From Allacma fusca (Eukaryota; Arthropoda; Collembola; Symphypleona; Sminthuridae): a stretch of 64,000 nucleotides of DNA. The position numbers and the translations under genes were made by a program. The DNA lies in NCBI GenBank assembly GCA_947179485.1, contig OX359245.1, positions 47,417,067 through 47,481,066 on the forward strand, in the 5' to 3' direction. Under the pieces are notes generated by a model. It was not told where the DNA came from and did no database searches. It saw nothing but the letters and a program-made list of their open reading frames with translations. Positions 3,971-64,000 of this stretch are shown piece after piece; the first letter of the stretch is position 1, and each line of letters starts with the position of its first letter.

Positions 3971-3976
3971 AAAATA

Positions 3977-4405: not shown

Positions 4406-4407
4406 GT

Positions 4408-5170: not shown

Positions 5171-5340
5171 ATAATTTAAAGTAATGATAATGCACATTAC
5201 CTCAATAATTACCTCCAAAGGATAATTTTCTGGATTTCAAATTGATTTAATCAAATTAAAGTGGACGAAAATAAATGTATTAATTAATTAAAATAATTAA
5301 TTAAAATAAAATTACTAGAAATTAAGCATGTGCTGCAGAA

Positions 5341-5376
5341 AGCTCGAAATACGCTGGGTCTCACACATTTCGAGCT
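5341..5376. repeat. Perfect 10-bp inverted repeat (hairpin)
   Basis: AGCTCGAAAT at 5341-5350 and ATTTCGAGCT at 5367-5376 are exact complements around a 16-nt loop. Confidence 0.6.
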
Positions 5377-5589
5377 GTTGTAGATGAATAGATTTAATCC
5401 CCTTTATTGGAAAAGTTTCTCATCACCTATGCACTGGATTTGTAACCAAATTGTCACATTTTACTAGAAAAATTCGAAATATCAGTTATTTTTTTTGACA
5501 TGTGTTTGGAAAATTCATCTTAGATTAATACATACATAGTCGTGTCAATGTGCAGATACACCAATAAGTTATTCCGGACAGAAATCATC

Positions 5590-5770
5590 TAAAACGTCAA
5601 TCTGTCATGAGACTCTTGGTTACCCAATAAGATGAGGTTACATGACCTCTGATTGACCTTATTGTGTCAATAATAATTACTTGACCTCATATTGACCATT
5701 TTGTTTCACTAATACCCACATGACCTCGTATTTTTATTGTGGCAATAATACTCACATGACCTCAGAATGA
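5590..5770. repeat. GACCTC/TTGACC word-rich segment
   Basis: Several ACATGACCTC, TTGACC and TGACCTCA words occur in imperfect tandem. Similar GGTCA words fill the piggyBac-like element at 45916-47967, so this may be a fragment of a related element. No ends are visible. Confidence 0.4.
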
Positions 5771-5889
5771 TCTTGGATCAAAAAATAGATTGGTGCCAAA
5801 GTGTGCAACCTTTAAAATTGGACTGTCAACATGCTCAATGCATCTTATACGGGACATTATTTAATGACTGGTTTTTGTGCTTTCATGTA

Positions 5890-6060
5890 ATTTTAAATGA
5901 CATAAGTTACACAAATCAATTCCTACGGGCTCTTGAGCTCAGATACATCAATACAGCAATCAATTTAGCAAATGTCTAGCGTCTTCAAGAACCTTGCAAC
6001 AATACAATACGGATTGTACAAAAACAAAAACAATCCAGTGGAAGTACTAAACAAAACAAA
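5890..6060 (+). repeat. Dispersed repeat paralogous to 30405-30560
   Basis: Both contain TACAGCAATCA, then a CTTCAAGAACCTT-like or CTTCTAGATCCTT segment, then AATACGGATTG or AATACGGATCTG and ACAAAA-rich sequence. Non-coding. Confidence 0.5.
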
Positions 6061-8600: not shown

Positions 8601-9494
8601 CAGTAAAACCTGTATATAGTGGCCGTTCATATAGTGGATTCCTGTTTATAGTGGACACATTTTACATCCCGGTCCCACCTCCTATCCTTTAACATAGGAA
8701 ACTCCCTCTATATAGTAGTTTTCTATATAGTGGAAACCTGCTCATAGTGGACTAATAATCATACCCCTTCAGTTAAAAATGCAGCTTGAAGTACCTGTAT
8801 ATAGTGGTCACCCAGTCAGAACGAAGGAATACAACTCGCGCGAACCCGAAACAATAACACGGCAGCTTGAATTTAACTCAATTACAGGCATTTGGACTAC
8901 GTTTTTATTTTCAGAGGTTTCGTATTGTATGTATCTGTACTAAATCAAATGCTTATTTATTATGTCCATTGTATCTATGTAATTTGTTTCTTATTAGTGC
9001 TTTGAAGTATTTTAAAGTAATTACTAGTTGTTTCTACTCATAATATAATTATTAGTTGCTTTGCAATAATTCAAATAATTTAGTCATGATTCGACCAAAA
9101 TTACGCAAAGTACTTACACTCTCAAATCAATTAGTAAAAAAAATATTTAGACCAGATTTCCCTATGGATAATGTCTCAAGACACAGAGTGCTCTGAAAGT
9201 CACTGCAGTGTTCATCAATTACAAGATTTCCTAGCAAAGATGAAAATTCGAAGTCTGAAGCAGAAAAAAATTAGTGGTTATTTTAAAAAAGACTGATTTT
9301 GACTAATTTAACTAATTTAAACTGATTTTCGATACCGTGTAAAAGTAAAACTTTGTTGGGTTCGTGCTGGTATACGTATATGTGTATGTATTTATATAGT
9401 GACCCCTGACCACTATATACTTATATAGTGGTCCCTGTCTATAGTGGACAAAGTTTGGCGTCCCTAGGAAAACCACTATATACAGGTTTTACTG
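8601..9494 (+). mobile_element. Pogo/Tigger-like element, family B, internally deleted, with TA duplication
   Basis: The termini CAGTAAAACCTGTATATAGTGG-type (left) and CCACTATATACAGGTTTTACTG (right) are inverted repeats flanked by TA at 8599-8600 and 9495-9496. ATATAGTGG words recur inside both ends. The 894-bp body keeps the 3' end of a transposase gene (9171-9296), so it is a deletion derivative of an autonomous element rather than a fully non-coding one. Confidence 0.88.
9171..9296 (+). pseudogene. C-terminal remnant of pogo-type transposase with PCNA-binding-like motif
   Basis: The frame from ATG 9171 to TGA 9294-9296 encodes 41 residues and is open upstream to about 9138. It ends in QKKISGYFKKD. 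QKKISGYF (9261-9284) fits the PIP box Q-x-x-[ILM]-x-x-[FY]-[FY]. Pogo transposase is an established PCNA-binding protein whose PIP box lies at its C-terminus, which matches the element type called independently from the termini. The helix-turn-helix and DDD catalytic parts are absent, so this piece cannot transpose anything. Placement just before the 3' terminus is where a transposase end should lie. The short length leaves a chance match possible, but terminus and motif agree. Confidence 0.65.
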
Positions 9495-9779
9495 TATAAA
9501 TATTGTGCTACAAAACGTTGTACAATTGTGTGACGCTTTACTTGGAGAGAAAAATATTTGCAAATGTTGAATGCAAATTTTGTCACATGTAGTCAGTCAT
9601 CTTAGGAGTTTGTTCAGTGTATTTTACTGGAAATATTTGCAATGTCTTCAAAACCAAATTTGTGCAACTGCATATTTTGTTTAAACTAGCGTGCTTTGCT
9701 AGTGCTTCTAGCTACTCGTAAGAGTCACATAAGCACGCTTAAATAATTATGAATTCTCAGAAAAATTGTTTTTAAAAAG

Positions 9780-10740
9780 TGTCACACAGTAAAAACTCGT
9801 CCTTATATTTGTAGGACTTAAGACCGGATTTGTTCCCTGAATTAAATGATCCTAGACTCAGATGGATCCCCATTAAATTTTCTGCCAACTAAGCTTTCGG
9901 AAAAAAATTGAGATCAGGAATGTAAATGAAAATTTGAATATCAGAAATTACATCATTCGACTACTTTCTCCCTTTTGCTCTTGAAGCTCCAAAAATTAAA
10001 AAATTAATATTTTGGAAAACATCAACTTTGCTTGATCCTCCTCGACCCTGTGAGCTCATATATTGCCCCAGGTCAATGGAGTGAATTCTGGGAGATACTT
10101 AAATTAAAATTTCGAAGTACACCAACTTTGCTTAACACTTTATCCTGTGAGCTCAAATATTGACACAGGTGGATGGAGTTAATTTTAGAAAATTTGTAAC
10201 GCCATTTACTACAACCTTGGCACGAATCAAATACTTTATGATGTATTCACTTTTGCCGGCTTGAGGTGAACACTAAAGTTATGGTCTTGTATGTATGTCA
10301 TATTTCATTTTTTCGTGTCCACTGTCGCTCCCTTCATTTTAAATGAATTTCAAAATGAAGTGAAGGTGTAAATTACAAATAACCTACTAAAAAATGTTTA
10401 TCAAATCTTAAAAATATTTCCCTGACTTCCGTGAATTTCAAGGGGCGGTATTTCTAGAACATTCTGAGGGGTTTCCAGGGAAACCTATGTGGAGGATATT
10501 TGCCGTAAAGACCACATGAATTAATCATAATAAACAACCATAAAACAAATATATAGTTCCAATCCCAGGGGTCAAAGTGAACACCTATATACATATATAA
10601 ATTTGGGGGACGCATCAAATAGTTATTTTTGCGAGGCTGACTAAATTTTAAAAAACCATCACTTTTGGGGAAAATGGTTCCGCTAATTTTAATAATTTTG
10701 GTTCGAAATGCTTTCACGCAGTTATATTTTTACATGGGAA
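9780..10740 (+). repeat. Dispersed repeat block, TGTGAGCTCAAATATTG family, copy 1
   Basis: Markers in order: GATCCCCATTAAATTT, TCAGAAATTACATCATTC, CAACTTTGCTT, CCTGTGAGCTCA.ATATTG, GGATGGAGTTAATT, TTATGGTCTTGTATGTATG. The same order and strand occur at 23620-24420, 44050-44362 plus 45368-45790, and 53400-53930. No intact frame. Confidence 0.7.
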
Positions 10741-37386: not shown

Positions 37387-37778
37387 ATAAAGATGAAATT
37401 GCTGCGGGGTGATACAACGGTACAAGCACGATGTTTAGCTTTGTCAATGTCGATTTTATTTTGGCATTCGTTAAACCGCTGAAGCACTATCTGAATTAAT
37501 TACCGTTAACCACTTGGAGATAGAATGTCTTGTGTCTAGTGCTAAAATATTTAAACAAATATTTTGTAGACAATTATTATATTTATCAATTTTACTTTAT
37601 TTTAATTGAAACCACTAGCAATGCATTTCCTTTCTAGTATTTTTAGCATTTTACTAGCACTTGTCATTTACTACTGAATTGCGGCACATGTTTCAAAATA
37701 ATTTTTAATTCTTAGCAAAAAAATGACTTCTTCATTAAAAATCAAGGCTTTGCTCCAGTTTAGTGTTTAGCAAGGGTT

Positions 37779-37857
37779 CGTATTTTCTGGTATCTATACC
37801 CGTACCCATACCATAGTACATATTCGGGTACAAATTTTTGGCATCCATACCCATAAT
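37779..37857. mobile_element. Short hAT-like GGGTAC-family fragment
   Basis: CCCGTACCCATACC, TTCGGGTAC and CCATACCC words just outside the left end of the 5.6-kb element. No complementary end on the far side. Confidence 0.4.
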
Positions 37858-38240
37858 GAGTTATTTCATTGAGATCCTGCACGCCAAAGTCTGGTTGTCG
37901 TACGAATTTATTGTTTACGTGCATGTAAGAAGTGTGCAGTATGGGTGCCTTAAGTGCACTTGAATTTCCCGGATATATCTAATACGTCCCGAGATACGGG
38001 AGTTTTTCGGATTTTTCGGGGAAAACGATATCTCGACAACGGAAAGTCGGATTTTGGCTCTGCTTAGTGATTCGGAAAGAGGAAACAATACTCTTTGGTA
38101 GCTTTTGACGCTTTGATTTTTTTAAAAAAATTGCATTCAAAATTTCGATTTGTTTTTCAAAATTGCATGCTAACGTGACTATTTGCACGCTAAACTAAAC
38201 TATATGCAGTCATTTCCCAATACAACTAAATCATTACACT
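37858..38240 (+). repeat. Left terminal inverted repeat of the 5.6-kb element
   Basis: Contains CCCGAGATACGGGAG and GGATTTTTCGGGG, found inverted at 43083-43469 with only a few differences. Similarity fades after CCCAATACA at about 38223-38240. Confidence 0.9.
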
Positions 38241-38366
38241 TCAGCAATCATTTTCAAGCAAAATATAGGTAGTACACATGAGGAAGTGTGGATTTCCGGG
38301 TGAACAATGACGTACATCTGATACGTGCAAGGCAATATAACGAAACGTCACATACATTAACAAAAG

Positions 38367-38372
38367 TTTATT
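38367..38372 (-). terminator. Poly(A) signal for the transposase-like gene
   Basis: AATAAA on the minus strand about 120 bases after the stop of the last frame. Confidence 0.45.
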
Positions 38373-38490
38373 ATACAATATGTGAAGGGATTTTTGAAGT
38401 GATACAAGACATGAAACGAGGAGGTATACAAAACGAAACGGTAAGACGCCATAGAAGTAGTAAATTAACGGTGAGTACTTACGATATTAC

Positions 38491-41120
38491 TTACAAATTC
38501 GATAATTGCTTTAACTTATCCACTACAACTTTTTCTAACTGTTGAAACTCGTGTTTCTCCAGAGCATAAACTCTACCGGATGATGAGCACGAGGGCGGCT
38601 GCAGTAGCTGAAGGAAATAACGAATAGCTACAATCTGGATGTTTGGAATTTCAGGCCAACGGAAGCTGTTTCTTCGCCCAAATCGTTTCATAAAGTTAAT
38701 TTCCACGTCTTCGAATGGTTCATTAAACTTGTCGACCACACCTATTTGGAAGGTGTCCAGGATCACGATTGCAACATAGTTTCCTACTGCCAGTGAAGGC
38801 GGAGTTGCCACATTTGTTGCAGTTATCGGTGTAAAAATTTCATAAGTTGAGCAACTGGAGAAGCGCTTTGCCATGATCTCATTGCTGTTTAGTGGAATCA
38901 TTGAATGCATTTTTTGAATTCCAACAAATTTTTGCGCAGCATTAAAGCGCTGTTGTAAGTCCACTGCTGCTGCATCAACGTCGCCAGATTTTACTAATAT
39001 AATTTGCATTGTTCTGGAATCCTGCCATTTGGTGACACAGAAGGCGAACATTTCGTCAACATTTCGTATAAAAACATCCGGTTTTAGGCTTGCCAATCGG
39101 ACCACACGTTTAATTACAGCAGACATCCCGTCACAGACAGATTTACCGTGGGAGGTTGCTGAGTACGTCCACGTTGATGGGATTGCAAAATCGGCTTCGT
39201 GATTAATGAGATTCGCAAGTAACTTGTAATTTTTGTACTGGGAACCACTTCCATCAGAGATGTAGTGCAGTTTGTTGACAAACGGAAGATCTCTACAAAT
39301 CATAGGTATGACTTTCTTTTGGAAAGCATAAAATGTTGTAGTATTGTGATCAAGATGGTCACTTAGGACGATGTAGGACTTGTAGACAAGTTGGTATGCT
39401 GATCTGTCTTAAAATAAACAACAAAGGGATGGACAGTTGCCTGGGCTGGATTCCAATGACTGGACTGGACTTCATCCTGGTGGATAAAGCGATAGTTCAT
39501 GGCAAAATCCACGTAGCATATAGCTTCTGTATCATCTTCCAAAACGCTTTGCTTCAATTTTGCGATATGTTCGTTTTGTTTGGTGTTAATGAAGTCGTGA
39601 GCTGACACTTTGGGAACGTAGGCATGGAATCTACTGCCAAATTCTTCAGTTTTCTCGGTGTATTTATTGAGTGCAGTTCGATCTTGATGCTCCCATTGGT
39701 AGAATTGCATGCTGTCCTCTGTGTTGATAGCCAAAAAATTGTCAATCTTTGATGGATTCGGACATTCCGTACAAAACCCGAGGTGGCACTCATCAGTACA
39801 TGGATCGCAGCGGAATTTTTTTAAAAGCTGGGCTGTACTTTCCATAACATTCATGGCTTTACAAAGGAGTTTAAAGTTTTCGTGGATTATGCAAACACAT
39901 GTAGTATGATGCCCTCTCGGTCCCGGCCAAGTGCATTGTCGTGGACGAAGTAGCGAAAACTTTGTCCGGCCAACCTTAAAGTTTGGGTATTGTTTGAGAA
40001 ATTCTTCGTGAAGCTCACTAAGAGTAACGTAAATTAGACGTTTGTTGACCGGCATTTTTAGACCTTCTTGGTTTTTTATGACGACGGTTTGGCGTTGACC
40101 CGGTAAACTACGACTATTTCGATCGTCCAAATAGAAAGCTGTTATAGCCTGAACAACTGGTTGTGGTAACCTATCTCCCGCCAGATTTGCAGGGGGTGCG
40201 TAGAACGCCCCATAAATTCTTTTGTATTCAGAAGCCTTTCTAGATTCGTAAGTACTACATTGGAAATTGAATTGGACCTCCTCTAAGGTAAAGCGCTCGG
40301 GAATACAAGTTAAATTGAGATATTTTTCTCTCTTCGACTGCAAGGATGGGAAAGTTTTCCCCAAGTCTGCAAATATCCTTTCACACTGTCCACATGCTTT
40401 CTTGGGCGTTAGTGCTACATCCACATTGCTGACACTTCTAAATCGTTCTTTCAATTCTTCTTGAGTTCTGGCATACTTTTCCTTGAGATCAGCTGGTCTA
40501 TGAGTGCTCCGTTTTTGAATGGGTGTTTGGTCGAGTGTTGTCATGGTAACGTTAATTTTTGCCAGTTGAGTTTCTGAATCCGCATAAGAGGACTGTGATG
40601 ACACTTCAGACGTATCAGTTTCATAAAGACTTGCCATTGTAATACTGGAGGCTGTCGCAGAAGGCATTGCATGGGGTAATTTAGGTACTCAAAACTGTGG
40701 TGTATTACCCTGCATATGTTCCCATGCAGTTTCTTCAGGTGATTGGAAATCTTCGGGGTCGACAGGTCGGGCATCTAATGCGGTTGCTGTGGGCAAAACG
40801 ATACCTTCGCTCGGCTGTGCAACTGCTCGGGTACGTTTGCCTGTTGGTGCAAACAAATCCAATGGCCGTCTTTTCGGAGGAACAAAAGATTGTAAAGGTG
40901 ACGACGGACTGGGTGCAGGAGGTGGTGAAGTTAAAATTCTTTCCAAATTTGCTACATCCTTTTTGCATGCAATGCAGAGTCTCGACTCGTCCAAGACGAG
41001 GAAATCTGGACGGTGATTTTGGAGAACTAGTTTTTCAGGGTCTGAGATTTTATTCTTCCCGGAAGTCCTGGAATGTCCTAGTTTTTTGAACGGATTACAG
41101 CAAACGACCGTTTTCCCCAT
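38491..41120 (-). pseudogene. Transposase-like protein, broken by one stop and one frameshift
   Basis: The start is ATG 41120-41118 in an ACCATGG context (MGKTVVCCNPFKK). The first segment ends at a TGA at 40691-40689, and the same frame resumes at once to 39363 (434 codons from ATG 40667). A -1 frame change near 39380-39400 then leads into the last frame, which runs to 38491. Total about 890 codons. Visible features in order: CCNPF and CIACKK, ACGQCE, an LPGQRQTVVIK to KVGRTKFSLLRPRQC stretch that looks like a DNA-binding region, HTTCVCIIHENFKL, then CYVDFAMNY, SDGSGSQYKN and ATSHGKSVCDG. These match in order a widespread family of uncharacterised animal transposon proteins that I recall without a firm name. 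The conserved Asp residues in VDF, SDG and CDG are candidate catalytic acids of an RNase H fold (inference). Introns instead of lesions are not excluded at either break. Confidence 0.7.
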
Positions 41121-41241
41121 GGTACACTTTGTGCTTTCAAGTAACGATAATGTAATTTGTGAAAATCGGGAACACAATTATACTGAAATTGTTCCAAAAT
41201 TTTGAAGGACCAAAACCTGATTCACATTACTGCCTTATGAA

Positions 41242-41247
41242 TTTATA
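41242..41247 (-). promoter_or_regulatory. Possible TATA box of the transposase-like gene
   Basis: CTATAAAT on the minus strand about 125 bases upstream of the ATG. Start site not evident. Confidence 0.3.
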
Positions 41248-41422
41248 GTTTGAGTATGCAAAGTTTCCAGAACTGAACTGGATAATCGCCTACAAAGCTC
41301 AAGCTAATAATAATTTGAACTAACATTGATAGCATTTACTGATTCAACTACGTAAACAAAATTAGTTTGCACGACCTATTTAATACTGTTAAGCAAATAG
41401 ACTAAAAGAGAAAGTATCTAAA

Positions 41423-41450
41423 GTCATGACTATAGTCATCCCGTCATGAC
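41423..41450. promoter_or_regulatory. Paired GTCATGAC palindromes between divergent genes
   Basis: The 8-bp palindrome GTCATGAC occurs at 41423-41430 and 41443-41450, exactly 20 bp apart (about two helix turns), with a partial GTCAT between. It lies just upstream of the plus-strand TATA box and between the two transcription directions, so it could bind a dimeric regulator (inference). Confidence 0.5.
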
Positions 41451-41463
41451 TACTTTGACAGCG

Positions 41464-41470
41464 TATAAAA
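41464..41470 (+). promoter_or_regulatory. TATA box of membrane-protein gene A
   Basis: TATAAAA, 31 bases before an initiator-like TGTCACT (A at 41495) and 66 bases before the ATG. Confidence 0.6.
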
Positions 41471-41529
41471 TGTAAGGAAACTTTCATGCTTGTCACTTAG
41501 TTTCTTGAATTTCCTAGTTGGACAAAATC

Positions 41530-42207
41530 ATGGCTCTCGTTGCGTCTTATTTTATTGTTGCTGTGATATATTCTGCAGCGTGTAGGTGTGTTGGCCCAAC
41601 ATGTGACGATATTCGAAGCCCAAAGGCTATGAAAGTTTTTCTCCAAAAGCAGCCACCCCATGTCCACGATTTTCCGACGCAGCCACCAAAGCCCGAGTTG
41701 TTTGTGCCATATTTGCTTTCTCCCATTCTGCCCATCAACGATGCTGGAGACGTGCAGAAAGAAGTTATTTACAAAACAGTTATTGGTGCAGCTGAAGTTG
41801 TTGTCCATGAAGCTTCAAAGGTTTCCGAAAGCGTTGTAAATCTTGAAGAGGAAATCGCAAACATGACATCTTCGGTTGTTCTCTTCGCTGAAGATACTGT
41901 AGAAAGCTACATTCACTTTTACATGTAAGAATATATATTCCAATATAATTCCTCCAATATATATTTAAGGACATAAACTTGCACCTAAAACTTCATATCA
42001 AGCTTATTGAATGTATCAACTTATTTAGACGTATCGTCAAAGTTGTGTGCTTTGGTCTCCTTGTTGGTGTTCTGATGTTTGTGTACGTCTGTGCACGCAA
42101 CTACCTATCCATGATAAGGTTCGTTCCTTGAATCACTGTCATGACAATATCTGTGTTCACTATACGAAAACTGATAATTTTGTTTGCAATCTATTTTCAG
42201 CTTCTGA
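41530..42207 (+). CDS. Gene A: predicted type I single-pass membrane protein, three exons
   Basis: Exons 41530-41924, 42029-42118 and 42201-42207 are joined by GT-AG introns of 104 and 82 bp, both phase 2, giving 163 residues. ATG 41530 is chosen because it starts a signal peptide (MALVASYFIVAVIYSAACRC). The ectodomain has a Pro-rich part (QPPHVHDFPTQPPKPE), then a long helical stretch with regular Val/Ile spacing (VQKEVIYKTVIGAAEVVVHE onward) and one N-glycosylation site (NMT). Exon 2 encodes the membrane span (VVCFGLLVGVLMFVYVCA) and a very short tail ending SMISF. If the second intron is retained, a stop still follows within a few codons. It has its own TATA box and runs divergently from the transposase-like gene, inside the same inverted repeats. 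I do not recognise the family. A role in cell-surface binding, membrane fusion or signalling would be speculation. The last 7-bp exon is the least certain part. Confidence 0.65.
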
Positions 42208-42281
42208 CGGTTCTCCGATGAATACATGTGAGTGTTATGACTAATTACGGTATTTTTGTTTGTAACTTTCACTATTTAGGG

Positions 42282-42289
42282 TATAAGTA
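42282..42289 (+). promoter_or_regulatory. TATA box and initiator of membrane-protein gene B
   Basis: TATAAGTA at 42282-42289, followed 27 bases later by TTCAGTCAG, close to the arthropod TCAGT initiator (A at 42309), and then ATG at 42362. Confidence 0.6.
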
Positions 42290-42361
42290 GACACGGTGAT
42301 GTCGCTTCAGTCAGTTATAAATTTCGAGCTTTCATATTCTCTTCTTTTGAAGTCAGCTATA

Positions 42362-42736
42362 ATGAATTATTTTCAAGTTGTAATTATTATTTTTGGTACG
42401 CAACTTTGTTGTGCTCAAGCAGATGATGTTGTCACGAATGTTGTGAATTATACCTTGTAAGCGCTATTTTCATTATTTGTAAATTCAAACTTAATAGAAA
42501 TTGTATATGTTAACTAATCTAATTTTTTGCAGGAGAGGCTTGGAGATAGCTGGAGCTTTCTGTGTCCTCATTTTAGTTATGTTGATTTTTAAAAAACTTC
42601 ACAATCTGTATCATTTCGTCCGAAAGTAAGAAACTAAGACTTTTCTAAGTTGGGTTAAATTTTGGGAAATTACCATACATTATTTCTTACTTTATTGTTT
42701 AGGCATTCTGTTGTGGACACGCATGCCGCCGTCTAA
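42362..42736 (+). CDS. Gene B: predicted small single-pass membrane protein, three exons, related to gene A by structure
   Basis: Exons 42362-42456, 42533-42625 and 42703-42736 are joined by GT-AG introns of 76 and 77 bp, both phase 2, giving 73 residues. The protein has a signal peptide (MNYFQVVIIIFGTQLCCAQA), an ectodomain of only about a dozen residues with an N-glycosylation site (NYT), a membrane span on exon 2 (AGAFCVLILVMLIF) with a basic follow-on (KKLHNLYHFVRK), and a tail ending DTHAAV. The exon plan (signal and ectodomain, then membrane span, then tail), the phase-2 introns and the exon-2 length (93 against 90 nt) match gene A, so the two look like tandem duplicates that diverged. 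Sequence identity alone would not show this. An unspliced reading of exon 2 ends at a TAA right after VRK. Confidence 0.62.
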
Positions 42737-42899
42737 TATTCCAGTCTTCCTGTTTTACCAACGAGATTGCCACATAAACCAGCCGATAAGTGTCCACAAA
42801 TAAGGCGTACTCACTACTGACATGTTATGTCTGTTGTGTTGAATCTACTATATTGTTCTTTTATTTCATGCTTGCAAATACTTGTTAATTATTATTTAC

Positions 42900-42905
42900 A
42901 TTAAA
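42900..42905 (+). terminator. Possible poly(A) signal for gene B
   Basis: ATTAAA about 165 bases after the predicted stop, before the right inverted repeat. Confidence 0.35.
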
Positions 42906-43082
42906 GCAATCACTGCTTCGAAATTCCATTAGTAACTTTTGTACTACAAATCGTGGAGGCTACTTTGATTTGTTATAAATTTGTGCATTGTGTCATTCTT
43001 GTGTGCTTACATGTGGTGTAGCAGTAGTCTATTGTAACCATACTAGCACATACTTACATTTAATACTCACAATGTGCTTGAA

Positions 43083-43469
43083 AAGTGTAATAATTTGGCT
43101 GTATTGGGAAATGACTGCATATAGTTTAGTTTAGCGTGCAAATAGTCACGTTAGCATGCAATTTTGAAAAAAAAAATCGAAATTTTGAATGCAATTTTTA
43201 AAAAAAAATCAAAGCGTCAAAAGCTACCAAAGAGTATTGTTTCCTCTTTCCGAATCACTAAGCAGAGCCAAAATCCGACTTTCCGTTGTCGAGATATCTT
43301 GTTTTCCCCGAAAAATCCGAAAAACTCCCGTATCTCGGGACGTATTAGATATATCCGGGAAATTCAAGTGCACTTAAGGCACCCATACTGCACACTTCTT
43401 ACATGCACGTAAACAATAAATTCGTACGACAACCAGACTTTGGCGTGCAGGATCTCAATGAAATAACTC
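43083..43469 (-). repeat. Right terminal inverted repeat of the 5.6-kb element
   Basis: Reverse complement of 37858-38240. The most obvious differences are in A/T runs and a 2-base gap near CTTGTTTTCCCC. Confidence 0.9.
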
Positions 43470-44049
43470 AATATAATCTGAATCTATTCTTCTTATTTTA
43501 TTAAATATTCTCTCCTGTACCAAATAATCCCGTATAAATAATTTTCTTTTTAATAATCATTTTTCCTAAGTTAAGCAAAGCTATAAAACAAATCAAGCTT
43601 AACACGTTTAAATTTTATTTTTTTGCAGTCAGTACAAACAGCTGTTTCTACCCGTTTGACAAGCACAATTATCAACTGAATCAAACTGAAATAGTTATAC
43701 TCAAAGAATGTCTCATGTGGCGTTAATGTTAAGTATTTAAATTTAAGTTTATATGATTTCATAATTTAATTTTTATTTCTATTTTTATTATTATTTTTAT
43801 TTATAATTAATTATTCCACAAGCAAAATAAGTATCGCTTGCCAATATTTGATATAAAACTATAATAATTATTGTTTTTGAAAATATTTTAAAATATAATT
43901 GGAAAATAAAATTAAATAAAGCAAAATTTGGTTTGCATGATGCTCAACTAAAAAAAATGAAAAATGCATTCATTTAAACTCAGTTCTTCTTACTTAAAAC
44001 ACAAATTTTCCCAGTTCCAGCGTTTTTATAAAAATTTAATATCTTTCCC
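43470..44049. repeat. Degenerate repeat with hub variant TGGCGTTAATG at 43718
   Basis: 43705-43770 matches 816-880. Otherwise AT-rich; nothing coding is supported. Confidence 0.5.
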
Positions 44050-45790
44050 TCGCATTTACAGGTTCTGTAAATTTGGCTTCCCGGAAATATGTATCTATGA
44101 ACGCCGGGCTGTCCATGAAAAATTGAAGGTCAGAAACGCCGCCATTATGCATATTTCTTGCCTTTGCTCCTGAAGCTGAATTTCTTTAAAATTTTTGGTC
44201 ATGTTCATTTTTGTTTCCTTACAGTCCTAAGTCTTAAAAAATCTTTGAAATGTTTTGCAAATTAGGCTTGAAACTGTGTCAAAATAACTTTCAATCAATA
44301 CTTTGAAAATCCAACTTTCCTTGACACTTCTTGATCCTGTGAGCTCAAATATTGCCCCAGATCAGTGCTCGGCACGGGTATGGGCAATACTCGGGTAAAC
44401 GGGTACGGGTGTGGGTACTATCCGGGTACATTTTTTGCACACGATTTTGTGTACCCGATCAATTTTGGGTATTACCCGGGTACACTTTGCTCGGCTCAAA
44501 ATTTCGGGTACGGATATGGGTATGAGTACGGATTCAAGGATTTCAAAATGATTATATACCCACTGGGTTCGGGTATAATGGGATTATTTACTCGTACCCA
44601 CGATCATTGTACCCGAGTATTTGGATACGTTGAGAATTGAGACATTTTAAAGAATTTTATGCCATCATGCCCGTACGTTGGAAACTTCTGTCAATATTTT
44701 TAGTGTTTCTGAATACATATAGCTTAGTGTTAATACCCTTTTAACCTTACAACATAGTAAATGTATTTTGGACTGTAGCTAAAATATATGCTTTTAGGGA
44801 AACATGTTTTAGGCCGTATAAATAAATAAACACAAACGAGGAATAATAACAAAATAGAAGTGGAGAATAGGATTCAACTAAATTTTGAACGGTTGGTAAT
44901 ATTTTGAAGAATCTGCAAGTATGCAAATTAATTTTATTTCTAATAAAAAACGCTTCTAGTTTTTCTACTCTTCAATGAAAATATACAATATTAAATACGG
45001 CTCTAGCTAGCCAAATTATACACTAAGGTGTCAAACAATATTATACCTAACGTGCTATGTACAACATTTAGAGAAATCTGGATATAAAGTACCAGAGTAC
45101 GAGTACGGGTACGACACTGAGATAAACGAGTATGGGTACAATTTTCGAGTATTTTTCGGGTACTGGTACAATGCGGGTACGGATACATAGTCTGAGATTA
45201 CATTGCGGGTACGCCTACATAGTTTGAGATTACATTGCGGGTACGGGTAGGAAAAATTTGCACCCGGATACTCGGGTATGGGTACGGATATAGATACCAG
45301 ATATTGCATTACCCGCACTTCGGGTACGGATACGGGTACCGATTTTTCGTTCCCGTGCCGAGCACTGCCCCAAATGGATGGAGTGAATTCTAGAAAAAAT
45401 TCGGCAACATTTAACACTGGGACGAATCAAATATTCTATCACACAAACACCTTAGCAGTCTTGAGGTGCACACAATAATTATGGTATTGTACATACATGT
45501 GTATGTATGTCCCATTCTTTTCCGTATGTCCAGTTTCGCTCCTTTCATTTTCAATAAATTTGAAGATGAAGTGCAGGTTAAAATTACAAAATATCTGAGG
45601 ATGGTTTCTCCCACTTAAAAATATTCCCTTGACCTCCGTAAGTTTCAACAGGCGCTTTTTGTAGAAAATTCTGAGGGTTTCCAGGGAAAGCATGTGGAGG
45701 ATCTTTATTATGAGAATTGTGGCCACGAGTCTTAATCATAATAAACAAGGCTAAAACAAATGTTTAGTCCCAGGGGTGAAACGTGATTCA
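44050..45790 (+). repeat. Dispersed repeat block, TGTGAGCTCAAATATTG family, interrupted copy
   Basis: Same marker order as 9780-10740 but split by the hAT-like element 44363-45367. Joining the flanks restores ATATTGCCCCAGAT/CCAAATGGATGGAGTGAATT. Confidence 0.7.
44363..45367. mobile_element. hAT-like element, GGGTAC family, copy with 8-bp target duplication
   Basis: Ends CAGTGCTCGGCACGGG and CCCGTGCCGAGCACTG are exact 16-bp inverses. CCCCAGAT (44355-44362) and CCCCAAAT (45368-45375) flank it, one mismatch. GGGTAC/GTACCC words fill both ends, with an AT-rich core. Apparent ORFs rich in Tyr, Pro and Gly are products of the word repeats. Confidence 0.93.
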
Positions 45791-45915: not shown

Positions 45916-47967
45916 CCCGTTGCCTCCCAACCTAAATTAGTTACATATATTCCCAAGGTATGGACAGCCTGTCCAATGGAATTTTCCATGCAAGGGTCCA
46001 TCAACAAAGTTACAAAGGAGTTGTCACATGCAGTAACCCAATTTCCTCCAGGCTGCTTTGAAAACTGAAACACCCTTCCACAAATTCCCCGTGTAACCCA
46101 ATAGGTCAACCATCAGGTCAACTAGGTTGACCTGAGGTCAGTTAGTAGATCGTCTGGACCAGTGCTCAGCACGAGTATGGGTAATACTCGGGTAAACGGG
46201 TACGGGTATGGGTACTACCCGGATACCAATTTTGTGCACCCGATCAATTTTGTGCACCCGATCAATTTTGGGTACTACCCGGGTACACTTTGGTAAATAA
46301 AAATTTCGGGTATGGATACGGGTATGGGTACGGGTACACGGATTTCAAAATGGGCATATACCCACCGGGTACGGGTATAATGAGGTCATTTACTATCGTA
46401 CCCACGACTATTGTACCCGAGTATTTGGATACACTGAGAACTGAGACATTTTAATGAATTTTATACTATAATGCCCGTACGTTGGAAACTTCTGGCCTTA
46501 TTTTTGGTGTTTCTGAATACTTATAGCTTAGTGTTAATACTATTTTAACCTTAAAACATACAGTAAATGTATTTTAGACTGTAGCTAAAATATATGTGTT
46601 TAGGGAAACAGGTTTTAGGATGTATAAATGAATAAACACAAACGAGGAAAAATAACAAAATAGAAGAGGAGAATAGGATTCAGCAAAAATTTGTACGGTT
46701 GGTAATATTTTGTTAAATCTGCAAGTATGCAAGTTAATTTTATTTCTAATCAAAAACGCTTCTAGTGTTTCTAATCTTCAATGAAAATATAGAAAATCAA
46801 ATACCGCTCTAGCTAGTCAAAATTACACACTAACAATAAGCTGTCATACATTATTATACATAACATACTATGTACTACATTTAGAGAAATCTGGATATAA
46901 AGTACCCGAGTACGATTACGGGTACGACACTGAGATACCCGCGTATGGGTACAATTTTCGAGTATTTTTCGGGTACGGGTACAATGCGGGTACAGGTACA
47001 TAGTTGGAGATTACATTGCGGGTACGGATATGAAAAATTTGTACCCGGATACTTGGGTATGGGTACGGGTATAGATACCAGATATTACAATACCCGCACT
47101 TCGGGTACGGATACGGGTACCGATTTTTCGTACCCATGCCGAGCACTGGTCTGGACGAAACGTTTTGATAACCCCGCTGTATTCAACCTAAAAATGGTTA
47201 GATTGGGCCACTTTTTTGCTAATAACTGACGCGACCTTTACAGGTCAACTTGGATCAAATAAGGTTAGACAGTGTAAATGACGAATAATGTCTGCTTTCC
47301 CCTCCAAACATATCCTCATTCAAGACCGTGATCCTGGATGTCAACTAGGTTATCAGGAGGTCAAACACTACATGGAAAATAAATCGGAAACAAATACCGA
47401 GTAGAGAAAAAAAGAGTATGATGAGGTCAACGTCAAAATCGTCATTTTATAGCGTGGTGCCCCTCAATATTTGTCAATAGGACACAATTACCACCAGTGC
47501 CTCCTATAAATAAAACTGAAACTCTCAGATGGCTTTTATTTGGGAGAATTCCACTCGTTTTTATCGTGACCTCAAGTTGACCTATGTGACCTGCAAAGGT
47601 GATAGGGACAATCTTTGGTATCCCTGCTACACATGTGTACCACTTTGAGCCTTACCAGTGGCTTCAAAATAATAGAAATTGCCTTTTCATTTCGTAGAAA
47701 TATTTTGATGGCCCCTATGCAATTGCATGGACCGCTTATCTAGCATTGAAAATGGCGGAAATATAAGGATTTTAATTTTTTATAATTTTATTGCAGCTTT
47801 GTTTATAAACCTGGAATGTTGAAAATTTTTAAAACAGCAGAAAACACTTCCGGAAACGAATACATTTTTTTTCAAATCTGTAGGTTTAACTGGAGTTTAA
47901 AAAAATAATAGTATTCCTCAAATTTTTCCATTTTGGACAGGCTGGGCATAGGTTGGGAGCAGTAGGG
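45916..47967. mobile_element. piggyBac-like non-autonomous element containing a nested hAT-like element
   Basis: Ends CCCGTTGCCTCCCAACCTA and TAGGTTGGGAGCAGTAGGG are imperfect inverses starting with CCC, flanked by TTAA on both sides, as known for piggyBac. Interior parts are rich in GGTCA words, including an AGGTCAAC-TAG-GTTGACCT palindrome near 46120. Without the nested element it is about 1.05 kb. No transposase. Confidence 0.82.
46160..47148. mobile_element. hAT-like element, GGGTAC family, nested copy, perfect 8-bp target duplication
   Basis: Ends CAGTGCTCAGCACG and GCCGAGCACTG. GTCTGGAC at 46152-46159 and 47149-47156. About 80-85% like 44363-45367 by eye, in the same orientation. Non-coding. 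Confidence 0.93.
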
Positions 47968-50145: not shown

Positions 50146-50571
50146 CAACAGGGTTCTAGCAAAAGCATGACTCTTTAAAGCCTAATCTATTAATTCTGCC
50201 TCAAGAAGCCTGAAACAGGAATTTGACTTAGGAAACTGATATTGACCTAAATGAATCCCCTTTGGAAATTTCTACAAAAGCTTATATGAACGATAAACCG
50301 TTCAAAAAGAATCCACGACCAAAACTTATTTTAGCAGGTGGATTCGAAAATATTGAGAAAAATTTGAAAATACAGAAATCAAACAGTAATCTGTCCATAT
50401 ATGATCTCTTTGGATTCCTTAGAGAGCCCTTTAAAAGTGTTATTATATTTGTGTAATTATTACGTTTTACCAATTTGACTCTCAGATTCGGCAAAGAATG
50501 CTCTGCCATTGTCAGTCAGTAGTAAATCTGATAGTGTAGTTACGCATGCATAAAAGCGACCTATTAAAAAT

Positions 50572-50925
50572 ATGTTTTTTTATGAAATTTGCAGGATTTG
50601 GCAAATTTTTCCCCAAATGAACGATGAACCGATTGAAATGATGTGTCAAATGGACTCTTATATTGAGCCTTCACGGACCAAAAAGAAGATTCGAAAGGTT
50701 CAATGCCGGTTTTGCCTTTTATCATTTCAACCCGGGAATTGTCTCATCGAGCACGAAAGGGTTCATACCAGTCAAAGGCCTTACAAATGTTCCACCTGCG
50801 GCCGTTCTTTTGGCCGCAATTATGCTTTTACCCTGCACTTGAGGCTCAACACAGGAGAGGAGAGAAGCCAAATGCGTCCAGTTTGTGGAAAACGTTTCCC
50901 AGACATTCATCCTTCAAACAGTTAA
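50572..50925 (+). pseudogene. Decayed C2H2 zinc-finger exon
   Basis: The frame follows an acceptor-like TTTGCAG (ends at 50594) and stops at 50923-50925. Finger 1 is complete (CRFC, 12 residues, HERVH), followed by the linker-like TSQRPYKC. Finger 2 keeps CSTC and one His, but its last His is replaced (HLRLN). Finger 3 keeps only CGKRF and lacks a proper first Cys pair and His pair. C2H2 fingers in tandem bind DNA or RNA in established cases. The loss of ligands in two of three fingers indicates decay or a recent frameshift at the end. Upstream exons were not found. It may be a retrocopy or a remote exon of a longer gene; AT-rich repeat surrounds it. Confidence 0.6.
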
Positions 50926-57505: not shown

Positions 57506-57850
57506 CCCCCATTTCCCTCAACTTGACCACACCTTCCGCTCCCATTACACTAATCCCCACGTACTACCCATCTAAACTCTCCATCCCATTATTTACCCTC
57601 CAATTCCCTTCCACTTCCCCTCCACCTCCAGTCCACTTCCTTTCCCCTCCATTTCCCCATCACTTCCCCTCCACCCCACATTCAATTACATTCCCCACCA
57701 CTTCCCCTCCACTTCCCCTTCAATTACATTCCTCCCTACTTGCCCTTCAATTACATTCCCCTCCACTTCTCGTCGGCTTACCCTTCAATCACATTCCCCT
57801 CCACTTCCCCTTCGAATACATAAACCGTCCACTTCCCCTCCAATTTCCAA
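57506..57850 (-). repeat. Inverted segment of the 28-bp satellite, diverged
   Basis: CCACTTCCCCTTCAATTACATTCCCCTCC and variants are the reverse complement of the satellite unit to the right, but less regular. The segment forms the array edge, where units are expected to be oldest. Confidence 0.8.
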
Positions 57851-60800
57851 GTGGAAGGGTGATGTATTTGAAGCGGAAGTGGAGGGGTTATGTATTGGAA
57901 GGGGAAGTGGAGGGTTTATGTATTCGAAGGGGAAGTGGAGGGGTTATGTATTTGAAGGGGAAGTGGAGGGGTTATGTATTCGAAGGGGAAAAGGAGGGGT
58001 TATGTATTTGAAGGGGAAGTGGAGGGGGTATGTATTTGAAGGGGAAGTGGAGGGGTTATGTATTTGAAGGGGAAGTGGAGGGGTTATGTATTCGAAGGGG
58101 AAGTGGAGGGGTTATGTATTTGAAGAGGAAGTGGAGGGGTTATGTATTCGAAGGGGAAAAGGAGGGGTTATGTATTTGAAGGGGAAGTGGAGGGGTTATG
58201 TATTTGAAAGGGAAGTGGAGGGGTTATGTATTTGAAGGGGAAGTGGAGGGGTTATGTATTTGAAGGGGAAGTGGAGGGGTTATGTATTTGAAGGGGAAGT
58301 GGAGGGGTTATGTATTTGAAGGGGAAGTGGAGGGGTTATGTATTTAAAGGGGAAGTGGAGGGGTTATGTATTTGAAGGGGAAGTTGAGGGGTTATGTATT
58401 TGAAGGGGAAGTGGAGGGGTTATGTATTTGAAGGGGAAGTGGAGGGGTTATGTATTTGAAGGGGAAGTGGAGGGGTTATGTATTTGAAGGGGAAGTGGAG
58501 GGGTTATGTATTTGAAGGGGAAGTGGAGGGGAAGTGTAGGGGAAGTGGAGTGGAAGTCTAGAGGAAGCGGAAGGGAAGTGGAAAGAAGTTGGGATGGACG
58601 TGAAGGGGAAGTGGAGGGTAGTGAAGGGTAGTGGAGGGAAGTTAAGGGTAGTGGTTTCGAAGTTGACTGGAAGTGGAGGGGGTATGTATTTGAAGGGGAA
58701 GTGGAGGGGTTATGTATTTGAAGGGGAAGTGGAGGGGTTATGTATTCGAAGGGGAAGCGGAGGGGTTATGTATTTGAAGGGGAAGTGGAGGGGTTATGTA
58801 TTCGAAGGGGAAGTGGAGGGGTTATGTATTTGAAGGGGAAGTGGAGGGGTTATGTATTGGAAGGGGAAGTGGAGGGTTTATGTATTCGAAGGGGAAGTGG
58901 AGGGGTTATGTATTTGAAGGGGAAGTGGAGGGGTTATGTATTCGAAGGGGAAAAGGAGGGGTTATGTATTTGAAGGGGAAGTGGAGGGGGTATGTATTTG
59001 AAGGGGAAGTGGAGGGGTTATGTATTTGAAGGGGAAGTGGAGGGGTTATGTATTCGAAGGGGAAGTGGAGGGGTTATGTATTTGAAGAGGAAGTGGAGGG
59101 GTTATGTATTCGAAGGGGAAAAGGAGGGGTTATGTATTTGAAGGGGAAGTGGAGGGGTTATGTATTTGAAAGGGAAGTGGAGGGGTTATGTATTTGAAGG
59201 GGAAGTGGAGGGGTTATGTATTTGAAGGGGAAGTGGAGGGGTTATGTATTTGAAGGGGAAGTGGAGGGGTTATGTATTTGAAGGGGAAGTGGAGGGGTTA
59301 TGTATTTAAAGGGGAAGTGGAGGGGTTATGTATTTGAAGGGGAAGTTGAGGGGTTATGTATTTGAAGGGGAAGTGGAGGGGTTATGTATTTGAAGGGGAA
59401 GTGGAGGGGTTATGTATTTGAAGGGGAAGTGGAGGGGAAGTGTAGGGGAAGTGGAGTGGAAGTCTAGAGGAAGCGGAAGGGAAGTGGAAAGAAGTTGGGA
59501 TGGACGTGAAGGGGAAGTGGAGGGTAGTGAAGGGTAGTGGAGGGAAGTTAAGGGTAGTGGTTTCGAAGTTGACTGGAAGTGGAGGGGGTATGTATTTGAA
59601 GGGGAAGTGGAGGGGTTATGTATTTGAAGGGGAAGTGGAGGGGTTATGTATTCGAAGGGGAAGCGGAGGGGTTATGTATTTGAAGGGGAAGTGGAGGGGT
59701 TATGTATTCGAAGGGGAAGTGGAGGGGTTATGTATTTGAAGGGGAAGTGGAGGGGTTATGTATTGGAAGGGGAAGTGGAGGGTTTATGTATTCGAAGGGG
59801 AAGTGGAGGGGTTATGTATTTGAAGGGGAAGTGGAGGGGTTATGTATTCGAAGGGGAAAAGGAGGGGTTATGTATTTGAAGGGGAAGTGGAGGGGGTATG
59901 TATTTGAAGGGGAAGTGGAGGGGTTATGTATTTGAAGGGGAAGTGGAGGGGTTATGTATTCGAAGGGGAAGTGGAGGGGTTATGTATTTGAAGGGGAAGT
60001 GGAGGGGTTATGTATTCGAAGGGGAAAAGGAGGGGTTATGTATTTGAAGGGGAAGTGGAGGGGTTATGTATTTGAAAGGGAAGCGGAGGGGTTATGTATT
60101 TGACGGGGAAGTGGAGGGGTTATGTATTTGAAGGGGAAGTGGAGGGGTTATGTATTTGAAGGGGAAGTGGAGGGGTTATGTATTTGAAGGGGAAGTGGAG
60201 GGGTTATGTATTTGAAGGGGAAGTGGAGGGGTTATGTATTTGAAGGGGAAGTGGAGTGGAAGTGGAGAGGAAGCGGAAGGGAAGTGGAAAGAAGTTGGGA
60301 TGGACGTGAAGGGGAAGTGGAGGGGTTATGTATTTGAAGGGGAAGTGGAGGGGTTATGTATTCGAAGGGGAAAAGGAGGGGTTATGTATTTGAAGGGGAA
60401 GTGGAGGGGGTATGTATTTGAAGGGGAAGTGGAGGGGTTATGTATTTGAAGGGGAAGTGGAGGGGTTATGTATTCGAAGGGGAAGTGGAGGGGTTATGTA
60501 TTTGAAGAGGAAGTGGAGGGGTTATGTATTCGAAGGGGAAAAGGAGGGGTTATGTATTTGAAGGGGAAGTGGAGGGGTTATGTATTTGAAAGGGAAGTGG
60601 AGGGGTTATGTATTTGAAGGGGAAGTGGAGGGGTTATGTATTTGAAGGGGAAGTGGAGGGGTTATGTATTTGAAGGGGAAGTGGAGGGGTTATGTATTTG
60701 AAGGGGAAGTGGAGGGGTTATGTATTTAAAGGGGAAGTGGAGGGGTTATGTATTTGAAGGGGAAGTTGAGGGGTTATGTATTTGAAGGGGAAGTGGAGGG

Positions 60801-63800
60801 GTTATGTATTTGAAGGGGAAGTGGAGGGGTTATGTATTTGAAGGGGAAGTGGAGGGGAAGTGTAGGGGAAGTGGAGTGGAAGTCTAGAGGAAGCGGAAGG
60901 GAAGTGGAAAGAAGTTGGGATGGACGTGAAGGGGAAGTGGAGGGTAGTGAAGGGTGGTGGAGGGAAGTTAAGGGTAGTGGTTTCGAAGTTGACTGGAAGT
61001 GGAGGGGGTATGTATTTGAAGGGGAAGTGGAGGGGTTATGTATTTGAAGGGGAAGTGGAGGGGTTATGTATTCGAAGGGGAAGCGGAGGGGTTATGTATT
61101 TGAAGGGGAGGTGGAGGGGTTATGTATTCGAAGGGGAAGTGGAGGGGTTATGTATTTGAAGGGGAAGTGGAGGGGTTATGTATTGGAAGGGGAAGTGGAG
61201 GGTTTATGTATTCGAAGGGGAAGTGGAGGGGTTATGTATTTGAAGGGGAAGTGGAGGGGTTATGTATTCGAAGGGGAAAAGGAGGGGTTATGTATTTGAA
61301 GGGGAAGTGGAGGGGTTATGTATTCGAAGGGGAAGTGGAGGGGTTATGTATTTGAAGAGGAAGTGGAGGGGTTATGTATTCGAAGGGGAAAAGGAGGGGT
61401 TATGTATTTGAAGGGGAAGTGGAGGGGTTATGTATTTGAAAGGGAAGTGGAGGGGTTATGTATTTGAAGGGGAAGTGGAGGGGTTATGTATTTGAAGGGG
61501 AAGTGGAGGGGTTATGTATTTGAAGGGGAAGTGGAGGGGTTATGTATTTGAAGGGGAAGTGGAGGGGTTATGTATTTAAAGGGGAAGTGGAGGGGTTATG
61601 TATTTGAAGGGGAAGTTGAGGGGTTATGTATTTGAAGGGGAAGTGGAGGGGTTATGTATTTGAAGGGGAAGTGGAGGGGTTATGTATTTGAAGGGGAAGT
61701 GGAGGGGAAGTGTAGGGGAAGTGGAGTGGAAGTCTAGAGGAAGCGGAAGGGAAGTGGAAAGAAGTTGGGATGGACGTGAAGGGGAAGTGGAGGGTAGTGA
61801 AGGGTAGTGGAGGGAAGTTAAGGGTAGTGGTTTCGAAGTTGACTGGAAGTAGAGGGGGTATGTATTTGAAGGGGAAGTGGAGGGGTTATGTATTTGAAGG
61901 GGAAGTGGAGGGGTTATGTATTCGAAGGGGAAGCGGAGGGGTTATGTATTTGAAGGGGAAGTGGAGGGGTTATGTATTCGAAGGGGAAGTGGAGGGGTTA
62001 TGTATTTGAAGGGGAAGTGGAGGGGTTATGTATTGGAAGGGGAAGTGGAGGGTTTATGTATTCGAAGGGGAAGTGGAGGGGTTATGTATTTGAAGGGGAA
62101 GTGGAGGGGTTATGTATTCGAAGGGGAAAAGGAGGGGTTATGTATTTGAAGGGGAAGTGGAGGGGGTATGTATTTGAAGGGGAAGTGGAGGGGTTATGTA
62201 TTTGAAGGGGAAGTGGAGGGGTTATGTATTCGAAGGGGAAGTGGAGGGGTTATGTATTTGAAGGGGAAGTGGAGGGGTTATGTATTCGAAGGGGAAAAGG
62301 AGGGGTTATGTATTTGAAGGGGAAGTGGAGGGGTTATGTATTTGAAAGGGAAGCGGAGGGGTTATGTATTTGACGGGGAAGTGGAGGGGTTATGTATTTG
62401 AAGGGGAAGTGGAGGGGTTATGTATTTGAAGGGGAAGTGGAGGGGTTATGTATTTGAAGGGGAAGTGGAGGGGTTATGTATTTAAAGGGGAAGTGGAGGG
62501 GTTATGTATTTGAAGGGGAAGTTGAGGGGTTATGTATTTGAAGGGGAAGTGGAGGGGTTATGTATTTGAAGGGGAAGTGGAGGGGTTATGTATTTGAAGG
62601 GGAAGTGGAGGGGAAGTGTAGGGGAAGTGGAGTGGAAGTGGAGAGGAAGCGGAAGGGAAGTGGAAAGAAGTTGGGATGGACGTGAAGGGGAAGTGGAGGG
62701 TAGTGAAGGGTAGTGGAGGGAAGTTAAGGGTAGTGGTTTCGAAGTTGAGTGGAAGTAGAGGGGGTATGTATTTGAAGGGGAAGTGGAGGGGTTATGTATT
62801 TGAAGGGGAAGTGGAGGGGTTATGTATTCGAAGGGGAAGCGGAGGGGTTATGTATTTGAAGGGGAAGTGGAGGGGTTATGTATTCGAAGGGGAAGTGGAG
62901 GGGTTATGTATTTGAAGGGGAAGTGGAGGGGTTATGTATTGGAAGGGGAAGTGGAGGGTTTATGTATTCGAAGGGGAAGTGGAGGGGTTATGTATTTGAA
63001 GGGGAAGTGGAGGGGTTATGTATTCGAAGGGGAAAAGGAGGGGTTATGTATTTGAAGGGGAAGTGGAGGGGGTATGTATTTGAAGGGGAAGTGGAGGGGT
63101 TATGTATTTGAAGGGGAAGTGGAGGGGTTATGTATTCGAAGGGGAAGTGGAGGGGTTATGTATTTGAAGGGGAAGTGGAGGGGTTATGTATTCGAAGGGG
63201 AAAAGGAGGGGTTATGTATTTGAAGGGGAAGTGGAGGGGTTATGTATTTGAAAGGGAAGCGGAGGGGTTATGTATTTGACGGGGAAGTGGAGGGGTTATG
63301 TATTTGAAGGGGAAGTGGAGGGGTTATGTATTTGAAGGGGAAGTGGAGGGGTTATGTATTTGAAGGGGAAGTGGAGGGGTTATGTATTTAAAGGGGAAGT
63401 GGAGGGGTTATGTATTTGAAGGGGAAGTTGAGGGGTTATGTATTTGAAGGGGAAGTGGAGGGGTTATGTATTTGAAGGGGAAGTGGAGGGGTTATGTATT
63501 TGAAGGGGAAGTGGAGGGGAAGTGTAGGGGAAGTGGAGTGGAAGTGGAGAGGAAGCGGAAGGGAAGTGGAAAGAAGTTGGGATGGACGTGAAGGGGAAGT
63601 GGAGGGTAGTGAAGGGTAGTGGAGGGAAGTTAAGGGTAGTGGTTTCGAAGTTGACTGGAAGTGGAGGGGGTATGTATTTGAAGGGGAAGTGGAGGGGTTA
63701 TGTATTTGAAGGGGAAGTGGAGGGGTTATGTATTCGAAGGGGAAGCGGAGGGGTTATGTATTTGAAGGGGAAGTGGAGGGGTTATGTATTCGAAGGGGAA

Positions 63801-64000
63801 GTGGAGGGGTTATGTATTCGAAGGGGAAGTGGAGGGGTAATGTATATGAAGGGGAAGTGGAGGGGTTATGTATTCGAAGGGGAAGTGGAGGGGTTATGTA
63901 TTTGAAAGGGAAGTGGAGGGGTTATGTATTTGAAGGGGAAGTGGAGGGGTTATGTATTCGAAGGGGAAGTGGAGGGGTTATGTATTTGAAGGGGAAGTGG
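57851..64000 (+). repeat. 28-bp satellite array with higher-order organisation, runs off the window end
   Basis: The unit is GGGGAAGTGGAGGGGTTATG plus TATTTGAA (28 bp), with the main variants TTCGAA, TTGGAA, TTTAAA, GGGGAAAAGG and GAAGCGG. A linker of about 150 bp made of unit-like pieces (GGGATGGACGTGAAGGGG, GGTTTCGAAGTTGACTGG) recurs near 58528, 59434, 60852, 61702, 62607 and 63513, plus a short form near 60252. The GATGGACGTG marker spacing is 906, 800, 620, 850, 906 and 906 bp. Variant units occupy the same places in successive blocks. Confidence 0.95.

Follow-up and report, generated by a model that had tools for sequence, protein, structure and literature searches.

A DNA transposon of Allacma fusca and its diverged relatives carry a conserved pair of predicted membrane-protein genes

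When a DNA transposon holds two small membrane-protein genes next to its transposase gene, are these genes passengers picked up by chance, or do they belong to the element? The question is raised by a 5.6-kb element at positions 37858-43469 of a 64,000-nucleotide stretch of the genome of the collembolan Allacma fusca (contig OX359245.1; the whole stretch is hereafter the window), for which a sequence-only reading had proposed that two surface proteins, here called A and B, are regular cargo. Cut-and-paste transposons are usually viewed as a transposase plus its binding sites, and the accessory proteins known to us act on DNA. The regular-cargo part of this proposal was borne out, in that the one other full-length copy found in the family keeps both frames open and diverged families carry both genes, and from these sequence comparisons we consider it very probable that A and B belong to the element as genes conserved under selection. 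The locus is best explained by placing the element in a lineage of cut-and-paste DNA transposons that have a DDD transposase and, divergent to it, A and B in tandem; complete examples measure 5.2-6.5 kb, with inverted repeats of about 385-460 bp and 3-bp target duplications.

Both genes are on the plus strand, divergent to the transposase gene, with A beginning 410 bp from the transposase start. That they are spliced and lie inside the inverted repeats had been proposed and was confirmed at the level of gene models, each gene having three predicted exons and GT..AG introns, with phase 2 at both introns. The product of A has 163 amino acids; it begins with a hydrophobic stretch, contains a CRCVGPTC motif and has a single predicted span, and its ectodomain, ~110 residues long, includes an amphipathic helix close to the end. 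The product of B has 73 amino acids, with a hydrophobic start, a very short ectodomain, one span, a basic juxtamembrane stretch and the tail HSVVDTHAAV. Of the signal peptide, ectodomain and single span proposed earlier for each protein, we recovered a hydrophobic N-terminus and one strong span in both (best 19-residue means 2.59 in A and 2.26 in B); leaders and spans were assigned from hydropathy only, the "signal peptide" included, and by this measure A and B are predicted surface proteins. The coding exons have a guanine plus cytosine (GC) content of 37% in B and 44% in A, and the two introns of A 25% and 32%. When all frames of at least 45 amino acids in the element were considered, the long ones were the transposase, A and B. 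None of 500 shuffles of the A/B stretch held two promoters of the form TATA-31-TCA[GTC]T, in which TATA lies 31 bp ahead of the A of the TCA initiator, a pattern fixed after the sites were known. The two genes seem to be transcribed separately, each from a promoter of the arthropod type. The exon structure is common to both genes, and direct similarity between them is weak (shuffle z 0.8, 0.9, 4.5 and 4.7 in the window, L043, L050 and L049, respectively); given that weakness, we do not claim paralogy.

The genome searched comprises 392.7 Mb in 91 contigs, and all copies and relatives given L numbers come from it except L028. A DNA search with the A/B stretch returned five matches, confined to the window, L017 and L018. 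The search with the inverted repeat returned 16, namely the four ends of two full-length copies, one end of the remnant L018, and 11 pieces that are shorter or diverged. Only one further full-length copy was found, L017; it lies on another contig, has AAT flanks like the window copy and is 99.25% identical to it over 5614 columns, with 44 alignment columns differing. Full-length copies without A and B had been named beforehand as the sign of chance capture; L017 keeps both genes with open frames, and the exons of B show no differences from the window. In the remnant L018, B and a portion of A survive with broken frames, the DNA identity being roughly 75%.

Conservation in other elements, ahead of the shuffle tests, is the evidence that decides the status of A and B. 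A genome search with A exon 1 gave four further matches at three loci (L040, L043 and L046; 28-33% identity), all four located 0.5-1 kb from a transposase homologue and in divergent orientation to it. L043 is a 6505-bp element with flanks TAT/TAT and L046 a 5172-bp element with flanks AGG/AGG, and their inverted repeats of ~440 bp have little in common with those of the window beyond (C/G)AGTTA. The A protein of L043 has 175 amino acids and contains RCIGPDC and VPFIMAPVVPVSEDG where the window copy has RCVGPTC and VPYLLSPILPINDAG; a B homologue follows downstream, with DYILRGWEVIGAMLVLVLV compared with NYTLRGLEIAGAFCVLILV in the window. The transposase of L043 is decayed, yet A and the B homologue are present. 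In the transposase of L040, the first 428 residues of the middle part are 54% identical to those of the window. A second sample was blind to A: the C-terminal part of the transposase had 72 genome matches, and the upstream stretch was examined by eye for ranks 4, 5, 6 and 10. Two of these four loci, L049 (40% identity) and L050 (43%), have both A and B, in order. L050 is a complete element of 5916 bp, with an inverted repeat that is 97% identical over 457 columns, flanks AAT/AAT and termini GGGTCA; the element at L049 is known with one end only, its far inverted repeat being outside the stretch read. The pair is present, then, in two further families (L043/L046 and L050), whose inverted repeats differ and which are flanked by 3-bp duplications, and in a third, L049. 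Since several transposons that are only distantly related have the pair at the corresponding position, A and B look like a functional component of the element rather than a passenger picked up by chance, and recent chance capture is rejected.

To describe this conservation we used eight gene models, A and B of the window, L043, L049 and L050. Exon 2 measures 90-93 bp and is entered in phase 2 in all eight models and left in phase 2 in seven; order, orientation and exon structure are alike in the window and the long-diverged families. Shuffle z scores for B were 12.8 for window-L050, 10.5 for window-L043, 9.2 for window-L049 and 26.7 for L050-L049, and those for A were 22.1 for window-L043 and 23.6 for L050-L049. 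Synonymous sites are near saturation (proportion of differences, pS, 0.69-0.83; nonsynonymous, pN, 0.37-0.53), and amino-acid changes were rarer than silent ones in six of six pairs (p < 0.01 each). The best-kept part of B is its membrane span with the adjoining residues, which suggests that A and B work inside the membrane, perhaps together.

Several observations weigh against this reading. Two changes separate the window from L017 in A exon 1, and both alter an amino acid. Set against L018, exons show no significant excess of conservation over introns (p 0.43; 0.065 for exon 2 by itself), and this comparison was not used as evidence. A carries stops in L046, and in B of both L043 (~6500) and L046 (~6350) the same T run precedes a premature stop; in these elements B is either broken or shorter, a truncation that may be either shared or real. 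At L040, a ~3.1-kb tandem duplication (3543-9886) contains two transposase genes and A as two fragments, and B was not recognised. Among the loci sampled by transposase, neither A nor B was recognisable in the upstream stretch of L051 (38% identity), and that of L052 (36%) holds a frame of another kind, with a membrane span at its end, and no A/B pair; on its 4-kb contig, the distant relative L028 shows the transposase only. Similarity is weak for B in L043-L050 and L043-L049 (z 2.1 each) and for A across the groups window/L043 and L050/L049 (z 3.3-5.1). The pN and pS values come from amino-acid alignments, which biases them towards low pN; the result agrees with the kept frames and phases. 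Splice sites in all A and B models were picked by eye, and a search of 5.8 billion proteins with A exon 1 and spliced B found no homologue at its sensitivity. As for the frame of L052 (G000 C9:45628870-45631770), it is long (662-1369, plus strand) and ends in the span YTLIAVCAFVLFSVIVICYQIKLLRDEK, with a hydrophobic leader in another frame, and it is possibly a third kind of membrane-protein cargo.

If A and B are genes of the element, the DDD transposase would cut it out and insert it through DDE/D chemistry, producing 3-bp duplications; we infer cut-and-paste movement on the long inverted repeats from the fold, the repeats and the duplications. A and B would be made in the host cell from their own promoters, enter the secretory pathway via their hydrophobic leaders, and work jointly in a membrane by means of the conserved spans and the juxtamembrane stretches, with A also exposing its ectodomain and the amphipathic helix in which that ends. 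Their purpose may be to act on host-cell membranes or signalling in the element's favour, which is our first choice, tentatively held. We give markedly less credence to a role in anchoring or regulating transposition at the membrane, and similarly little to some other purpose. It is just as unlikely that the pair is a transmission device, able to carry or admit the element's DNA from one cell or host to another via vesicles or membrane fusion. Predicted membrane proteins inside a mobile element are consistent with such a device, and the only precedents known to us are in much larger virus-like elements (Mavericks; Teratorn), whereas a Pfam scan of the transposase, A and B recognised no fusion, capsid or polymerase domain above the cut-off, and the outside part of B is very short.

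Alternatively, A and B may be host genes that an ancestral element captured once and has carried passively, without benefit. Transposons do capture host genes, a relative in which the pair was not seen exists (L051), and both full-length copies of the family have transposase lesions, from which passive decay would be under way. However, every A match in the genome falls in a transposase-bearing locus, no free-standing host gene was found among these matches (only the best candidates were scored), and frames, order, splice phases and amino acids have been kept at near-saturated synonymous divergence, so that we consider passive carriage improbable. That A and B are chance open frames with imagined introns is hardly credible: the 132-codon frame of A alone was equalled in 2 of 500 shuffles and no homologue is found among public proteins, whereas homologous spliced frames occur in three other families (L043/L046, L049 and L050), again at near-saturated synonymous divergence.

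As standard equipment of the element, a conserved pair of membrane proteins would mean that it also acts at cell membranes. This would make the persistence of DNA transposons in cells and species, and their crossing between them, directly testable, and hosts would find in A and B a new supply of small membrane proteins to domesticate. A bolder version, somewhat doubtful in our view, is that of a widespread, overlooked transposon lineage with a dedicated two-protein membrane complex, which moves element DNA between cells or individuals or reprograms the host cell; if it holds, a simple DNA transposon has a virus-like cell-surface function without having become a virus.

The ends of the element are well defined (Table 1). 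Near-identical inverted repeats of 385 bp had been reported, and the two repeats measured here are 97.7% identical over 387 columns; within the window their outer 32 bp occur at just these two places (0 of 100 shuffles). The host site is a ~32-bp tandem repeat, of which an unoccupied copy reads TACCC-GC-AAT-GTAATC and the occupied one TACCC-AT-AAT [element] AAT-ATAATC (compared by eye), and from this empty site the insertion is read as having made a 3-bp AAT target duplication. GGTACCC-rich dispersed repeats are present at 45167-45246, 46990-47095 and 37774-37852; the element is inserted in one of them, which is the source of the empty site. Perfect 3-bp duplications flank six of the eight elements with both ends read (window, L017, L027, L043, L046 and L050: AAT, AAT, TAA, TAT, AGG and AAT, respectively), varied in sequence and never TTAA; the other two, L024 and L026, lack one. 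Inverted-repeat pieces at L022, L024, L026 and L027 have GAGTTAATTCATTGAGATCC-like ends, and the last three look like short non-autonomous elements with two ends.

Table 1. Features of the transposon in the window copy (positions are those of the window).
Feature	Position	Strand	Evidence
Left target-site duplication, AAT	37855..37857	.	sequence and empty site in neighbouring repeat copies
Left terminal inverted repeat, 384 bp	37858..38241	+	97.7% identity to right repeat
Transposase gene, DDD family, broken in window copy	38491..41120	-	36 homologues, frames, predicted fold of closest homologue
Putative core promoter, gene A (TATA box TATAAA; initiator TCACT with A at 41495)	41464..41497	+	pattern scan
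Gene A exon 1: hydrophobic leader and ectodomain	41530..41924	+	gene model, homologues
Gene A exon 2: predicted membrane span, 90 bp, phase 2/2	42029..42118	+	gene model, homologues
Gene A exon 3, stop at end	42201..42207	+	gene model
Putative core promoter, gene B (TATA box TATAAG; initiator TCAGT with A at 42313)	42282..42315	+	pattern scan
Gene B exon 1: codes for the hydrophobic leader and the short ectodomain	42362..42456	+	gene model, homologues
Gene B exon 2: predicted membrane span, 93 bp, phase 2/2	42533..42625	+	gene model, homologues
Gene B exon 3, stop at end	42703..42736	+	gene model
Right terminal inverted repeat, 387 bp	43083..43469	-	97.7% identity to left repeat
Right target-site duplication, AAT	43470..43472	.	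sequence and empty site in neighbouring repeat copies

The minus-strand transposase-like gene of the sequence-only reading is indeed present, with two lesions that the reading had missed, an in-frame TGA (40689-40691) and a frameshift within 39363-39408; lesions are found in L017 as well. Its 36 homologues, from beetles, wasps, stick insects, thrips, flies and sponges, are 28-38% identical over the searched region and share with it the conserved residues D, D, D. The predicted fold of the closest homologue is RNase H-like, with an integrase-like core and three conserved acidic residues, and its structural matches include Mos1, tied with integrases and IstA. On this predicted fold, the transposase is one of the DDE/D (RNase H-like) group, in an animal DDD family. 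A Pfam-A scan of 38 family members gave no transposase model among the 25 families listed of 40 at E <= 1 (best E 0.0045), and none matched the three pieces of the window transposase; we also point out an arthropod and sponge transposase family that the Pfam copy used fails to recognise. Nothing useful came from PDB sequence searches, scans of viral contigs with the transposase, a PHROGs search or a phage DNA search with the A/B stretch, and a bacterial promoter scan was uninformative, being of the wrong promoter kind. Of 24 stretches matched in a scan of genome contigs with the transposase, one was confirmed, the distant relative L028 (JAAEPJ010000558.1, 967-3039), which encodes a 690-residue protein with repeated GTACGTCCAACAC motifs on both sides; the record is labelled bacterium MAG (metagenome-assembled genome), and this is probably eukaryotic contamination. 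The Frankliniella fusca relatives P0030, P0032 and P0035 carry the public names RecF, Trigger factor and Protein piccolo, which look wrong. At L021, long frames (4905-6971) resemble, by eye, a transposase of another family.

Known systems were compared with the element. MULE/Mutator elements have target duplications of about 9 bp, and membership was rejected on the 3-bp duplications, with no MULE model among the Pfam families listed. PIF/Harbinger elements make a 3-bp T(A/T)A duplication and encode a Myb-like second protein; here the duplications are also of 3 bp but vary in sequence, the second and third genes predict membrane proteins, and no Harbinger model was among the Pfam families listed for the 38 transposase members, so this assignment was rejected too. 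Mavericks/Polintons encode a protein-primed DNA polymerase and capsid genes, and were rejected since the long frames here are only the transposase, A and B and no polymerase or capsid match passed the Pfam cut-off. Like Teratorn, reportedly a transposon-herpesvirus composite, they are mobile DNA able to carry membrane-protein genes, but both are far larger, with virus gene sets, whereas the present element has 5.6 kb and the transposase, A and B only. A literature search outside most subscription journals found no title that joins a DNA transposon with membrane-protein genes, virus-transposon composites (Teratorn, Mavericks) aside. The unnamed family of the beetle, wasp, stick insect, thrips, fly and sponge homologues resembles the element in identity and in its D, D, D residues, a likeness between transposase proteins alone.

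Kolobok elements are similar in that, besides inverted repeats and a DDD/E transposase, they retain accessory genes specific to particular lineages as part of the element (PMC9587614). They differ in their 4-bp TTAA target duplication and in accessory proteins that are named as KolX, RecQ helicase and nucleases (PMC9587614), as opposed to the varied 3-bp duplication and predicted membrane proteins found here; neither "transmembrane" nor "membrane" occurs in the text of that paper. PMC9587614 also describes for Kolobok a C/DxxH signature lying between acidic residues two and three. Kolobok membership was rejected on the 3-bp duplications in six of eight elements, without TTAA. Zator has an IS630-like transposase (PMC7386202); for this group and IS630-Tc1-mariner, what was observed is the structural match to Mos1, shared equally with integrases and IstA.

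Elsewhere in the window, an open frame at 50554-50922 shows, by eye, C2H2 zinc-finger motifs, and a 28-bp minisatellite of about 217 copies occupies 57849-64000 and extends past the window end, with a GC skew of about 0.94 and almost all G on one strand.

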